Source of the DNA: Akkermansia sp.
Lineage (GTDB): Bacteria > Verrucomicrobiota > Verrucomicrobiia > Verrucomicrobiales > Akkermansiaceae
Assembly: GCA_030523775.1 (NCBI GenBank)
Contig: JAUNHW010000003.1
Coordinates: 62,001 to 126,000 of the forward strand
Direction: 5' to 3'
Length of the DNA stretch: 64,000 bases
The notes beneath the pieces were generated by a model. The model was given only the letters and a program-made list of their open reading frames with translations. It did no database searches and had not been told where the DNA came from. This document shows, one piece after another, positions 23,234 to 29,058 of this stretch. Both the position numbers and the translations under genes were made by a program. Each line of letters opens with the position of its first letter. The stretch's first letter is position 1.

Positions 23234-24712
23234 TCAGTCGTTGAGGCGGTGGGCCACGGGGAAGTGCAGCTGCTCTGCGGGTGCATCCACGTGCAGGATG
23301 GTGGGCAGGATGGTGCGTTTGAGCGCGGCGGCAATCATGCGGCGCTGAATGCGGCGTACAACGTCCTCAGGGAAGAGCCCGCCGCAGTTGGCTATCAGGT
23401 CGGTGGGCGGCACGTTGCGGTCTGCCAGCTCGTGGATGATGCGGTCCACCTCCGGCTGGGCGGGTTCCGTGAGCGCGCCGAAGAGTTGGGCGTTCTCCTC
23501 TTGCAGGAGGGCGCGCAGCATGTGCAGGTCCATCTCGTACAGGTTGCCGAGCGGCGCTAGCGAGCCGCAGGTCTCCGCGTAGGGAGTGAACTCGCCGAGC
23601 ATGATTTCACGCCGTCCCAGCGGGCAGAGCAGCATGTGCCCCAGCTCGTCCGCCACGGCGGCGGTGAGCATGGCCCGCATGCGCGCCTGCAGGGCGGGGT
23701 TATCCTTTCCTGCGGGTTGGGGCGGGGCATCCGGCGTGCGCACGGTGATGCCCAGCTGCGCCGCAAGCGGGGATTCCCCCTGCGCAAAGGTGACGCCGCA
23801 CACGTGGGCGGCCCCGAGCGCGCCGGTGCAGAGTGCGGCCAGGAGCGTGCCGTTCGGGTGGTCCAGCGGAATGCACACGCCGGTGTAGCCGTTGTTGCGC
23901 ACGGTGTCCGCAATGCCGCGCTGCAGGGCCTGGCGCAGGAGCTCGCGCGGCTCCGGCAGGGCGGCGCAGGGACGCCCCTTGTCCACATCCGCCACCTTGG
24001 CGGCAGGCTCGAAGAACGGTAGGCGCAGCAGGGGTTTCCCCTCTGCGGAAAGGATGAAGGACCCGCCCGCGTAGATATCCCGCCCGGCGGTGCCCACGGG
24101 GGCGCACATCACCACGGGGACCCCGTTGGTGGTGGCTTCCCAGCCCAGGGTGTCCTGAAGGTCCGCCGCGGCGGTGGCGTGCCAGGGGCGGCAGGAGAGG
24201 TGCACCAGCAGGTCGAAATCCGGGCCGTCAGGCAGGATGTCCTCCTCCCCCAGCTGCACGTAGATGTTGCAACCGTTCACTTCTGTCACCGCGCCGTCGT
24301 CCAGCTCGGTCACGGTGTCGCTTTCCAGCAGGTAGGGCACCAGTGCGGCGCGGCGGCGCTTGCGGCGCAGTTCCTGCGGGTCGTCTTCCTCTCCGTCGTC
24401 TTCTCCCAGCATGCCGTCCCACAGGTCGTCCTCCCCTATGAATCGGAAGTATGCTCCCAGGATGAGCGGCGCGGTGCCGAGCTCGCGCGAGAGGGCGTCC
24501 AGCGCGCGGCGCGTCTGGCGTTCGAAGGAGTCGCGCTCCGCCAGGTCCTGCGGGTTGAGGCCGCACAGGGCCTCTGCGGGAGCGATGACAAGCTCCGCGC
24601 CGTGGTCGATGCAGTCGCGGTATCCCTGCACGATGGCGCGGAGGTTGTTGGGGAAGTCGCCGGGGAGGGGGTTGTTCTGGATGATGCCGATGCGGTGGAT
24701 AGTGGGGGCCAT
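23234..24712 (-). CDS. NadE-like nitrilase/NAD-synthase fusion protein, probably catalytically dead
   Basis: A 492-residue protein with the two-domain layout of glutamine-dependent NAD synthetase. In the nitrilase domain Glu 47 (APAEALCG) remains, but where the family has an ICEDIW-type cysteine the sequence reads QLGEEDI (153-159), with no cysteine. The lysine expected before the LPNY-like motif is not obvious (RRRAALVPYL, 119-128). In the synthetase domain the ATP-binding SGGxDS loop is replaced by LDHPNGT (283-289), although flanking family segments (LCTGALGAAHVCGVT and LGEFTPYAETCGSLAPLGNLYEMDL) align well. It is therefore probably not an NAD synthetase; it could be a regulatory or scaffolding paralogue. 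It is the last gene of an operon with lptD and an acyltransferase. Confidence 0.75.
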   Translation of the reverse strand: MAPTIHRIGIIQNNPLPGDFPNNLRAIVQGYRDCIDHGAELVIAPAEALCGLNPQDLAERDSFERQTRRALDALSRELGTAPLILGAYFRFIGEDDLWDGMLGEDDGEEDDPQELRRKRRRAALVPYLLESDTVTELDDGAVTEVNGCNIYVQLGEEDILPDGPDFDLLVHLSCRPWHATAAADLQDTLGWEATTNGVPVVMCAPVGTAGRDIYAGGSFILSAEGKPLLRLPFFEPAAKVADVDKGRPCAALPEPRELLRQALQRGIADTVRNNGYTGVCIPLDHPNGTLLAALCTGALGAAHVCGVTFAQGESPLAAQLGITVRTPDAPPQPAGKDNPALQARMRAMLTAAVADELGHMLLCPLGRREIMLGEFTPYAETCGSLAPLGNLYEMDLHMLRALLQEENAQLFGALTEPAQPEVDRIIHELADRNVPPTDLIANCGGLFPEDVVRRIQRRMIAAALKRTILPTILHVDAPAEQLHFPVAHRLND

Positions 24713-24725
24713 GGGTGTTGTTCGG

Positions 24726-27302
24726 TTAGTAGAGGGATACGGGGAGAGAGGTTCCCGTTTCAGAGAAGGTGAAGGAGAGCCCCGCGCCGGCTTCTCGCTT
24801 GCCGCCGTTGTTGCGCAGGTAGAGGTTGAATCCCACGTACCAGGCGCCGGAGTTGCGGAAGAGGGAGAGCTGCTGCATGGGGCTGCGGCCTTCTGTGATA
24901 TCCATGTAGGCGCGGCCTGCCAGGGTGTAGTTCTCGTTGATGCGCAGGTTGCCCTGGGCGTAGAACTGGTTGGAGTCCTTCTGGATGGGGTGGTGTTCGA
25001 TGTAGCGGTGGCCCAGGGTGTATTCGAACCAGGCGCAGGGCATGTGCGAGACGCTGGTGTTGTACTGGTGGAAATCCTCGCCGTTCCGGAAGGTGGGGGT
25101 GAGCGATTCGAAGCGCACGGTGAAGGTGTCCGCCGGGTTCAGGCGCACCACGGAGTACACATCGGAGAACGGGCGGTGGGTGTTGGAGTTGTTGCCGTTG
25201 TAGTCCACAAAGGCGTTCCAGTCCAGCACGTTCATCCGTTCTCCGTCCCGCAGCGAGGAAAAGGTGTTCTGCATGCCGAACCTCCACACGGAGTTCTTGC
25301 CCCAGCCGTCCACACCGGTGAAGCTGCACAGGTCCATGGGCATGGGGGATGCCGTGCAGGCCCCCATGGTGGTGGACCAGCAGTCGATGCGCGGCACCAG
25401 CGCGTTGGAGGCGGAGATGACCATGTGCGAGTACGAGGTGTACGGGCGCAGCACGTGCGTGAGCCCCTGGAAGCCTAGCCGGTCGTACCGGAACCCGGCG
25501 TAGTGGCGCTGCAGGCGGATGCCCAGGTCACAGCCCAGGTAGCCCATGAAACGGTTGTCCGCGCCTATGCCTTCCACGTCGTAGTACCCGGAGTAGCCGA
25601 ACCCGGCTTTGGGTGTGACGTTCAGGAAGCGCATCACCTTGAAGCTGGTGGTGAATTCGTGCAGGGTGTAGGCGCGGGCGTAGGCGTCCGTTTGCAGCAG
25701 GCGGGTGTAGTAATCCCGTTCAGGGCCCTCACGCAGACGGCTCAGCGCGTCTTGGTACGCAGTGCGCTGGATGGGTGAGATATACTGGTGCATCACCCCG
25801 GCTCCGGTGCGGGTTTCGTAGTTGATGCGGGTGCCGAGGAGCGGCGTGCGCACGCGGTAGAAGCTGCCTTCCGCGCGCTCGTCCGTGGCGTAGTAGTCGT
25901 TGGGGGCGAAACGCGTGTAGAACATGCCCTGCGTGAGCGCGGAGGTACGGGAGAGGCGCACGGTGTTGTCCGGCTTGTCGTTGGTCTGGCAATCCGTGGT
26001 GAAGAAGTCGCGCAGCATGTAGCGGTCGCTCACGGCGTTCACGTTGGCGGCGGCTGTCCAGCGTGCATTGCGGTCGAAGGTGGGCTTGGCGTCCCAGGCG
26101 GCCATCATGCTGGCGTAGTAGCGGTTGTCGCTCACCTTGCTGCGCGGCGTTTCGGACGGGTTGATCATGGGGTCGCGGTCCGGCGCGTAGTAGAACTTGA
26201 TGCCGCGCAGCTCCTTGTTGCGCGATGTCATGCCCAAATCCTGGAGGTCTAGCCCGGTGGCGAACCCGCGGCGGGTACGGTAGTCGGCATGCAGGGTTGC
26301 CAGGTAGTCCGCGGTGGGCATGATGCCCTGGGTCCTGCGGTTGCCGAAGAGGAATCCGTAGCTGTTGAAGAGGTAGGCGCCCCAGTAGGAGCGGGTACCC
26401 AGGTTGGGCAGGTATCCCTCCCTGGGGTTGAGGGAGTGGGAGAGGGGAATCCAGCCGATGACGGGCACGGCCACATCATGGCTGCGGGAGGCGATGCTTA
26501 GGCGGGAGACCGAGCCGTAATCCCCCGGCACTACGCGCAGCGTGCCCGCGCCTACCCAGGAGCGCGGGTGCTGGATATCCTCCGTGGTCACATAGGCATC
26601 ATGGATGATGATAACGTTTCTCCCCTGCGCGTCCTTGGTGTATTCAATGCGGGAGCCGCGCACCAGCATGCCGTTCACCTTGGCGCGCACGCCGTTGAGA
26701 TCCGCGGTGCCGGAACCCCAGCGGTAGGTTCCGCCACCGCTGCTGCGCAGCAGCATTTCGCTCTGGCACACGGTGAGCGGGCCGTGCAGCTCTGCCACGT
26801 TTTCTGCCAGGTTGGCGGCCATGCCGCCCGCGTAGATATCCGCCCCGGTGTCCGCCAAGATATGGATGGGCTTGCCGCCGCCCTCGTAGGTGACGCTGCG
26901 TTGCCCGGCATCGTAGCGTATATCCGCCCCCGTGCTTTCCACCGCCAGGTTGGAGGGGATTTTGGGCGTGGCGGAAAGGGTGCCCAGCTGGTTCATGCCG
27001 GAGATTTCCGCCACGGTGGGTGAGGCGGGGCGTTCCGCCGCCGTGATGTTTTGCGGCAGGGGCAGCACGTTCCTGTCTTCCGGTATGGTGGGCATCTCTG
27101 CCGCGCGGGCGGGAAGCGCCGGCAGTTTCGGGAAATCCGCATGCCGCGGTTCCGGCGGGGTGATGGCGGCGTGCTCTTCCACCTGCGGCAGCGGGGCGGG
27201 GGCTGCATCCTGCGCGCACAGACCGCCCGCCAGAAGGACAACGGGCAGTGCCCCGCGCCCTATCATGCGTACGCCGCATCCGCTGAAACGCACATCTGCC
27301 AT
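24726..27302 (-). CDS. lptD: LPS-assembly outer-membrane protein LptD-like (OstA family)
   Basis: An 858-residue protein. Near the N-terminus is a secretion signal (about 13-31, MIGRGALPVVLLAGGLCAQ), then a Pro/Glu linker and an OstA/LptA-like beta-jellyroll region (DIRYDAGQRSVTYEGG... MAANLAENVAELHG ... ADLNGVRAKVNGMLVRGSRIEYTKD). About 600 residues follow with barrel strands containing PVIGWIPLSHSLNPREGYLP, EFTTSFKVMRFLNVTPKAGFGYSG and a C-terminal FTFSETGTSLPVSLY. This is the LptD architecture for inserting lipopolysaccharide in the outer leaflet. Start choice is uncertain: an internal ATG at 27266 would begin right at the signal peptide. The acyltransferase ends 13 bp upstream; the NadE-like gene starts 13 bp downstream. 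Confidence 0.8.
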   Translation of the reverse strand: MADVRFSGCGVRMIGRGALPVVLLAGGLCAQDAAPAPLPQVEEHAAITPPEPRHADFPKLPALPARAAEMPTIPEDRNVLPLPQNITAAERPASPTVAEISGMNQLGTLSATPKIPSNLAVESTGADIRYDAGQRSVTYEGGGKPIHILADTGADIYAGGMAANLAENVAELHGPLTVCQSEMLLRSSGGGTYRWGSGTADLNGVRAKVNGMLVRGSRIEYTKDAQGRNVIIIHDAYVTTEDIQHPRSWVGAGTLRVVPGDYGSVSRLSIASRSHDVAVPVIGWIPLSHSLNPREGYLPNLGTRSYWGAYLFNSYGFLFGNRRTQGIMPTADYLATLHADYRTRRGFATGLDLQDLGMTSRNKELRGIKFYYAPDRDPMINPSETPRSKVSDNRYYASMMAAWDAKPTFDRNARWTAAANVNAVSDRYMLRDFFTTDCQTNDKPDNTVRLSRTSALTQGMFYTRFAPNDYYATDERAEGSFYRVRTPLLGTRINYETRTGAGVMHQYISPIQRTAYQDALSRLREGPERDYYTRLLQTDAYARAYTLHEFTTSFKVMRFLNVTPKAGFGYSGYYDVEGIGADNRFMGYLGCDLGIRLQRHYAGFRYDRLGFQGLTHVLRPYTSYSHMVISASNALVPRIDCWSTTMGACTASPMPMDLCSFTGVDGWGKNSVWRFGMQNTFSSLRDGERMNVLDWNAFVDYNGNNSNTHRPFSDVYSVVRLNPADTFTVRFESLTPTFRNGEDFHQYNTSVSHMPCAWFEYTLGHRYIEHHPIQKDSNQFYAQGNLRINENYTLAGRAYMDITEGRSPMQQLSLFRNSGAWYVGFNLYLRNNGGKREAGAGLSFTFSETGTSLPVSLY

Positions 27303-27315
27303 GGGTTCTGCAATA

Positions 27316-29058
27316 TCAGTTGGAGGTCCCCATGTAGCGCTTCATGAAGCGAGCCGCGGTGGATTGCAGGTTCTGGAGCACCATGCAGTCCAGCGTGCCG
27401 CCGAAACTCTCGTCGATGCCGAAGGAGAGCATCCTGCCGTTGATGCGGAGATACTGGCGCAGCAGCACGGGAATGCCCTTGCCGTCCGGTTCCGCCTCGC
27501 TCACCAGGATGCTCAGCAGGCGCACATCCGTGAGCCCGGTTTGCAGCAGGCGCATTTCCTCTGCGCGCATGCCCAGGCTCTCCGGCGGGAAATTGGCCCG
27601 CACGTGCCGCGCCAGCCGCGGCTCCATGCAGTGTACGCGCAGCCAGCCCAGAATCAGGCGGCGGGAGTATTCCGTGTATTCGCCGGAAATGCTCACTGTG
27701 CCGTACAGGTAGCGGTATTCCGGGTGCTTGAGCAGGTAGCGCCCTATGCCCATCCACAGCGTGTCCAGGGAGGCCGCCATCCTCTGGTACGGCGGCGTGA
27801 TGAACGCCCGCCCCATCTCCAGACCGTGGGATATGACATCCAGCACAGGCTTGCCGAAGCGGAAGAACTGGGCATTGTAGAGCCCCGCTATTCCCTTGTT
27901 GCGGATGATGAAATCCGTTCGTCCGATGCGGTAGGCTCCCGCCAGCTGCCTGTTGCGGGCATCCCACATCACCAGGTGGATATAGTGGGGGTCGTACTGG
28001 TCCAGGTCGCACGCGGTGCCGGTGCCCTCGCCCACGGCGCGGAAGGTGTTCTCGCGCTGCAGGCCGATCTCGTGGAGCAGGCGGGGAATCTGCTCCGCCT
28101 CCGCGGCGTACACCTGCAGGCCGTAGTTCTCGCTGTTGTAGCAGAAGCAGTTCTCCGGCAACGCGTCAATCTCCTCCTGCAACAGCTCCGGCGGTTCCGG
28201 GGAGTCCACAACGCAGGGCGCATCATTTGCCGCCCGCGCGGGCTCGGCGGCGCCCTTACCCTGATAGCGCAGCAGGGAGGAGCACAGCTGCAGGTAGTCG
28301 CTGAGGGCCTGGGGGTCTTTGAAGAGTGAGATAATCTTGGGCTCCACGGGCTTGCCCAGGCGGATGCTGTGGCGCATGCGCCCGTCTCTCTTGATTTCGC
28401 GAGGCAGGAAAGTGGAGCGGTGAGCCTTGGCCAGCACGGTCACCAGCTGGAAGAACCAGCCCGTGTGGCCGGATATGTGCATGGGCACCACCGTGGCCCC
28501 GGTCTTGATGATGATGGAGGCTATGTTGGTCTGCCAGGGATCCTCCTGGATTTCGCGGTGGCGCAGGGAGAGGGAAGCCACGGAGCCGCTCGGGAACACA
28601 AGCAGGCAGTGCCCTGCGCGCAGCCACGCCAGCATTTCCTTCATGCCGGCTATGTTCGCGCGTGTAGCCTCGTTTCCACCGTACACGTTCACCGTGATGG
28701 ATTGCGGCCGCATGCCCCGCACGCAGTACAGGAAATCGTTCACCACAATCCGCACGTCCTTGCGCCGCCGCATCACCGCCGCGCCGAACATGATACCGTC
28801 GCTCAGCCCATGCGGGTGGTTGGAGGCCACCACGCACGGCCCTTCCGCGGGGATGTTCTCCAGCCCCTCCAAATCAAAGTCCAGGTTGAGGTATTTGCAG
28901 GCCAGCGTGAAGAAATCCTCCCCGCTGCCGTTCTCCCAGTCCTCCTCTATATGGTCGTGCGCGTAGTTGAAATTGCTGAACCCCAGACGCCTCTCTCCCC
29001 ACTCTACAAGCCACCGCGGCAGCTTCAGCCACTGCGGCAGGTATTCGGTGAGGTCCAT
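27316..29058 (-). CDS. Bifunctional acyltransferase: PlsC-like plus GNAT (OlsF-like aminolipid synthase)
   Basis: A 580-residue protein with two domains. The first (about 1-290) is a lysophospholipid-acyltransferase fold with NHPHGLSDG (80-88) as the catalytic His/Asp motif and LLVFPSGSVA as the substrate site. The second (about 310-560) is a GNAT of the N-acyl amino acid synthase group (YNSENYGLQVYAAEAEQIP, then VISHGLEMGRAFITPPYQ). O-acyl domain first and N-acyl domain second is the arrangement described for OlsF, which builds ornithine lipids in one protein; glycine or other amino acid lipids are equally possible. It lies directly before lptD, consistent with an envelope-lipid role. The start at MDLTEYL is preferred. 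Confidence 0.8.
   Translation of the reverse strand: MDLTEYLPQWLKLPRWLVEWGERRLGFSNFNYAHDHIEEDWENGSGEDFFTLACKYLNLDFDLEGLENIPAEGPCVVASNHPHGLSDGIMFGAAVMRRRKDVRIVVNDFLYCVRGMRPQSITVNVYGGNEATRANIAGMKEMLAWLRAGHCLLVFPSGSVASLSLRHREIQEDPWQTNIASIIIKTGATVVPMHISGHTGWFFQLVTVLAKAHRSTFLPREIKRDGRMRHSIRLGKPVEPKIISLFKDPQALSDYLQLCSSLLRYQGKGAAEPARAANDAPCVVDSPEPPELLQEEIDALPENCFCYNSENYGLQVYAAEAEQIPRLLHEIGLQRENTFRAVGEGTGTACDLDQYDPHYIHLVMWDARNRQLAGAYRIGRTDFIIRNKGIAGLYNAQFFRFGKPVLDVISHGLEMGRAFITPPYQRMAASLDTLWMGIGRYLLKHPEYRYLYGTVSISGEYTEYSRRLILGWLRVHCMEPRLARHVRANFPPESLGMRAEEMRLLQTGLTDVRLLSILVSEAEPDGKGIPVLLRQYLRINGRMLSFGIDESFGGTLDCMVLQNLQSTAARFMKRYMGTSN

Follow-up and report, generated by a model that had tools for sequence, protein, structure and literature searches.

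NAD synthetase is normally an indispensable enzyme. The described systems closest to the protein studied here are the dimeric type 2 NadE-Gln (PRK13981; PDB 3n05, 4f4h and 5kha), the octameric type 1 NadE-Gln of the same superfamily (PRK02628; M. tuberculosis 3dla) and the ammonia-dependent NAD synthetase. In distant bacteria the dimeric type 2 enzyme is bound by PII (PMC7196632); PII regulation is a property of several members of this type and does not strictly define it.

The protein is encoded in a stretch of 64,000 nucleotides of an Akkermansia genome, the whole of which is referred to here as the window. With type 2 it has the two-domain layout, the fold and the descent in common, the link being provided by the syntenic copy of another Akkermansia genome (G012) and by the copy of a sister genus (G124). 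It differs from type 2 in the loss of its two active sites and of the P1 and P2 loop segments, and in that the PII regulator is missing from Akkermansia. The octameric type 1, to which the intact NadE of the same genome belongs, forms an intact lineage of its own (632-680 aa), from which the window protein does not descend. The ammonia-dependent enzyme is what the G012 copy should resemble; in the window protein the synthase site, too, is gone.

Fold and active sites of the window protein

The open reading frame at 23234..24712 (minus strand, as are all window features given below) begins with ATG and encodes a product of 492 aa. It is matched by the Pfam models of both domains, CN_hydrolase (PF00795; 33.2 bits, cut-off 23.2) and NAD_synthase (PF02540; 26.9 bits, cut-off 21), whereas it stays well below the cut-off of PRK13981, the NCBI equivalog for NAD+ synthase (95.3 against 479 bits). 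The sister-genus orthologue reaches 698 bits. The AlphaFold2 model (pLDDT 90.6, pTM 0.89) has as its top solved structure the Streptomyces NAD synthetase 3n05_A (Z 33.5, rmsd 2.8, 468 residues). An earlier note on this DNA had suggested that the protein could represent a family derived from NadE and had proposed to model its structure; the Pfam layout and the match of the predicted fold to 3n05 support a NadE-derived family. Residues 7-244 (23981..24694) constitute the former nitrilase-type glutaminase domain, recognized by CN_hydrolase and stripped of its Glu, Lys and Cys triad. Residues 255-473 (23294..23950) constitute the former NAD synthetase domain, delimited by Pfam and the alignment. 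As modelled, the chain has the whole two-domain fold of NadE and lacks the known catalytic residues.

The window protein and 26 close Akkermansia homologues (27 core sequences) were aligned with seven intact NadE sequences from the order that includes Akkermansia; residues of the intact enzymes are numbered as in L038. None of the 27 keeps any member of the triad Glu41, Lys112 and Cys148; the column of the catalytic Glu holds A46 in the window protein and an alanine in 24 of the 27. The motif of the catalytic Cys, ICEDIW, has become QLGEEDI (residues 153-159; 24236..24256), and the ATP-pyrophosphatase loop SGGxDS has become LDHPNGT (residues 283-289; 23846..23866), one residue shorter than in NadE, its glycines and Asp being kept in 0/27. 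The Tyr of GYCT is likewise kept in none. In the human enzyme Tyr525 stabilises the nicotinic moiety (PMC6946656), and by matching to it the Tyr of GYCT would be the nicotinate-stacking residue. The dead synthase loops differ between lineages: that of the A. muciniphila clade has its full length (NLLESAFSSL), that of the core sequences is one residue shorter (PLDHP-NSAL). The alignment further reveals the deletion from the core homologues of two active-site loop segments, which correspond to P1 and P2 of the family. The earlier note had read both active sites as gone, the amidase Lys as not obvious and the two motifs as replaced at exactly these residues, all of which the alignment confirms.

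Motifs that had merely shifted along the chain were ruled out by the alignment together with a motif scan of all copies, in which neither SGGxDS nor ICEDxW was found anywhere in 57 distinct Akkermansia copies, G012 excluded. The loci examined gave 66 distinct sequences, among which ICEDxW is limited to the eight intact non-Akkermansia copies, and SGGxDS to these eight and the copy of G012. A sequencing or assembly artefact was also rejected, because identical losses occur in single-contig genomes.

Conservation in the family lies elsewhere. The best-conserved stretch is formed by residues 25-36 (R.IVQGYReClD, mean identity 0.89) of helix 1 (residues 20-36; 24605..24655), a candidate interaction surface. 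Other highly conserved stretches are 385-395, 424-433 and 457-470. The C-terminal HRLND tail (23237..23251) has a low pLDDT, yet is near-invariant across the family.

Distribution, selection and the replacement NadE

A profile search of 76 Akkermansia genomes found the orthologue in 67, counting cases that are weak, frameshifted or located at a contig edge. It was not found in G004, G007, G013, G024, G025, G085, G090, G094 and G096, at least five of which (G007, G013, G024, G025 and G094) are 94-99% complete. The copy of the draft genome G036 is frameshifted. These absences and the frameshift indicate that the gene is dispensable in some lineages. Across the genus, this orthologue represents the ancestral NadE itself rather than an extra copy that arose to serve a new role.

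Pairwise dN/dS (NG86) was 0.11 at a dS of 0.21 for the closest pair (L045/L046) and 0.09-0.12 for the pairs L011/L014, L025/L036 and L012/L018. In the GC-rich clade to which the window belongs it ranged from 0.25 to 0.5, compared with 0.35-0.58 for LptD and 0.19-0.37 for OlsF in the same genome pairs, and was thus about equal to or below that of LptD and somewhat above that of OlsF. In the genomes putatively assigned to the A. muciniphila clade it was 0.2-0.55. The copies there have 466-470 aa in 11 genomes and 449 aa in the twelfth (G069), and they evolve much faster than mlaE, which is far more conserved. The suggestion that the frame is maintained rather than decaying is in line with these values (about 0.09-0.55 overall) and with open frames in nearly all copies (one draft copy is frameshifted). 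With its catalytic residues lost and both its fold and purifying selection kept, the protein has the features expected of a pseudoenzyme.

The earlier note had expected a real NadE elsewhere in the genome, and had proposed to search for it. Such a protein is indeed encoded at G000:C2:61499-63394 (632 aa), with the motifs ICEDLW and SGGLDST, a score of 752 bits on PRK02628 (cut-off 473) and M. tuberculosis NadE as its closest solved structure (E 4e-112). The presence of nadB in the window was likewise confirmed (TIGR00551, 568 bits, cut-off 453). A PRK02628-type NadE scores above the cut-off in 69 of the 76 Akkermansia genomes; the exceptions are G012, two genomes in which the gene is split over contigs (G017 and G029), two that are less than 80% complete (G034 and G075), G094 and G095. 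Searches with the pseudoenzyme profile and with PRK02628 found no NAD synthetase in G094 (97% complete), probably owing to a missing contig. Among outgroup genomes within the order, the long NadE type tends to alternate with the short one, but the sister genus G124 has a fully intact type 2 NadE and another, long NadE.

In G004, G006, G010, G017, G023, G059, G071, G073, G078 and G080 the long NadE is accompanied by an additional short one, which has some 260 aa and appears to depend on ammonia.

The G012 copy and the order of the losses

A PRK02628-type NadE is missing from G012, a genome 99% complete. Its sole identified NAD synthetase is the syntenic copy L034:6971-8557 (G012:C40:23970-25556), which has SGGVDSAL and a Pfam synthase score of 238 bits and lacks the Glu-Lys-Cys triad. 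Of the 221 positions at which intact NadE does not vary, the G012 copy has retained 36% in the glutaminase part, against 33% in the core, and 70% in the synthase part, against 27%. Its glutaminase is eroded as in the core and its synthase is not; death of the glutaminase therefore preceded release of the synthase. Since only its synthase domain is intact, the G012 protein should act as an ammonia-dependent synthetase; judged from its sequence it should use free ammonia only, and G012 is predicted to make its NAD from that source alone, via an enzyme whose glutaminase domain is dead. The estimated contamination of G012 is 6%. The contig has the genus-typical order lptD-nifA-nadE and a nifA-like protein 80% identical to that of G027, and therefore looks genuine.

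The trees differ on how often the synthase was lost. In whole-gene trees G012 lies outside a single clade of all degenerate copies (100/100; 98/90), which favours a single loss. In the rpoB tree the A. muciniphila clade and G014 branch off first and G012 groups with the rest of the species (100/100); a grouping of all other Akkermansia to the exclusion of G012 is rejected (p-AU 1e-43). The tree of the glutaminase domain supports the rpoB topology (91/95) and that of the synthase domain does not, a conflict that is expected if relaxed lineages attract each other. The dead synthase loops of the A. muciniphila clade and of the core sequences, described above, are different as well. We therefore prefer parallel loss over the single loss, which the rpoB and glutaminase-domain trees disfavour; the synthase site probably died at least two independent times. 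Gene conversion or recombination in G012 may be an alternative to parallel loss.

A history in several steps would follow. Comparison of the genomes shows the loss of the glutaminase triad in the ancestor of the genus, which would have left at most an ammonia-using synthetase, as G012 appears to have. The Mycobacterium-type NadE would then have taken over NAD synthesis; its distribution is observed, its place in the order is our reading. The old synthase site would have died afterwards, probably independently in the A. muciniphila and window clades, a step on which the trees conflict.

Gene neighbourhood and possible function

In the window the pseudoenzyme gene is the third after those of an OlsF-like bifunctional acyltransferase (27316..29058; NCBIfam orn_lipid_OlsF, 338 bits, below the cut-off of 620) and an LptD-like outer-membrane protein (24726..27302), with gaps of 13 bp. 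This order had been described correctly in the earlier note. The position of its lptD stands as well, while the name is weakly supported: there is no Pfam or NCBIfam match, and a profile built from 11 sequences has similarity to an LptA-type N-domain at E 0.0026. The LptD of Akkermansia appears to be very divergent.

The envelope operon did not hold up as a clue to function. When the order was followed through the relatives, much of the genus was found to have the ancestral arrangement olsF - lptD - nifA-like - nadE(-like), the third gene encoding a protein with GAF, sigma-54 activator and Fis HTH domains. The nifA-like gene has been lost in the window lineage, so that the adjacency to lptD looks left over; the best match in the window genome is a different activator of 463 aa. 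In G013, G024 and G025 olsF-lptD-nifA is kept and the pseudoenzyme is absent. Elsewhere the pseudoenzyme precedes mlaE (A. muciniphila clade), follows gltB-nifA (G014), or adjoins gatB-region genes, leuA/pth-type genes or an RND pump. An obligate partnership with the nifA-like regulator is not supported, as the regulator is gone from the window genome and the pseudoenzyme persists.

NifA-like GAF/sigma-54 activators recur beside gltB or nadE in Akkermansia (L034:8567-10144, L027:5591-7138 and L064:5624-7102), and this family possibly acts as a nitrogen regulator in a genus that lacks PII.

PII itself (PF00543) was found in none of the 76 Akkermansia genomes; of the 57 other genomes sampled from the order, 54 encode it, as do 13 of the 14 controls. 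This genus-wide absence excludes a PII-based role, and it may be the reason why the native NadE became replaceable. It leaves extremely little room for the idea that the protein is a PII-docking platform remaining from a PII-regulated type 2 NadE and linking nitrogen status to NAD metabolism. The binding of PII by the type 2 enzyme and the nifA-like activator that ancestrally adjoined the gene are in its favour, yet it is already refuted for PII, and the nifA-like gene, too, is gone from the window genome.

Since the replacement NadE took over NAD synthesis, the old protein probably does something without catalysis. We consider it fairly probable that it is the original dimeric type 2 NadE-Gln of Akkermansia, now a pseudoenzyme that is retained for a function other than catalysis, probably in binding or scaffolding. 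Such a role would explain the purifying selection on a chain that, in most lineages, appears to be needed for neither active site. The absences of the gene, the frameshift in G036, the fast evolution relative to mlaE, the conflict of the gene tree with rpoB and the chance, as far as sequence can tell, of some residual or new chemistry were counted against this reading. The absent or frameshifted copies and the fast A. muciniphila sequences are what a slowly decaying relic without current function would show; the open frame in nearly every copy across a large divergence, a constraint like that of LptD and the full length kept in separate lineages after catalytic death make such a relic quite unlikely. 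It is unlikely that the protein has remained an enzyme whose rebuilt pocket serves a different reaction, for instance on another dinucleotide or amide. The conserved fold and length, the invariant polar residues new to the family (D284, R367, H427, Y392 and W177) and the retained C-terminal KRxQ of NadE would suit it, but both catalytic sets are gone, the P1 and P2 segments closing off the synthase site have been excised, and the former glutaminase elbow is among the less conserved parts and has acquired no new conserved Cys, His or Asp. A part in envelope lipid transport together with LptD and OlsF, or with MlaE in A. muciniphila, draws on two different contexts that both hold envelope-lipid genes; given the nifA-like gene as ancestral immediate neighbour and the variety of the other contexts, we regard it as very unlikely.

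The likeliest function would be that of a binding or scaffolding protein, dimeric if the ancestral state is kept. Helix 1, the 385-395 segment and the C-terminal region from KRxQ to HRLND are the candidate working surfaces. The regulatory or scaffolding function suggested in the earlier note appears plausible. Tentatively, the ancestral NadE may already have had a second, non-catalytic job, catalysis having been lost in parallel after the arrival of the foreign synthetase and the job having been kept.

In the literature searched (Akkermansia NAD synthetase and NifA, NAD synthetase and nitrilase pseudoenzymes, transposon essentiality in Akkermansia) we found nothing on this gene and no earlier account of a NadE that is maintained with both sites dead. 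The pseudoenzyme genes are recognized by NAD-synthase models, and annotations may list them as NAD synthases, an error that would misdirect metabolic models and lists of targets. One and the same gene is available in four states, intact in the sister genus, half-dead in G012, fully dead in most species and absent in others, so that the non-catalytic role of a core metabolic enzyme becomes testable in a cultivable human gut bacterium. If the second job indeed pre-dated the loss of catalysis, Akkermansia would represent a genus-wide natural experiment in which a moonlighting role has been separated from the chemistry.
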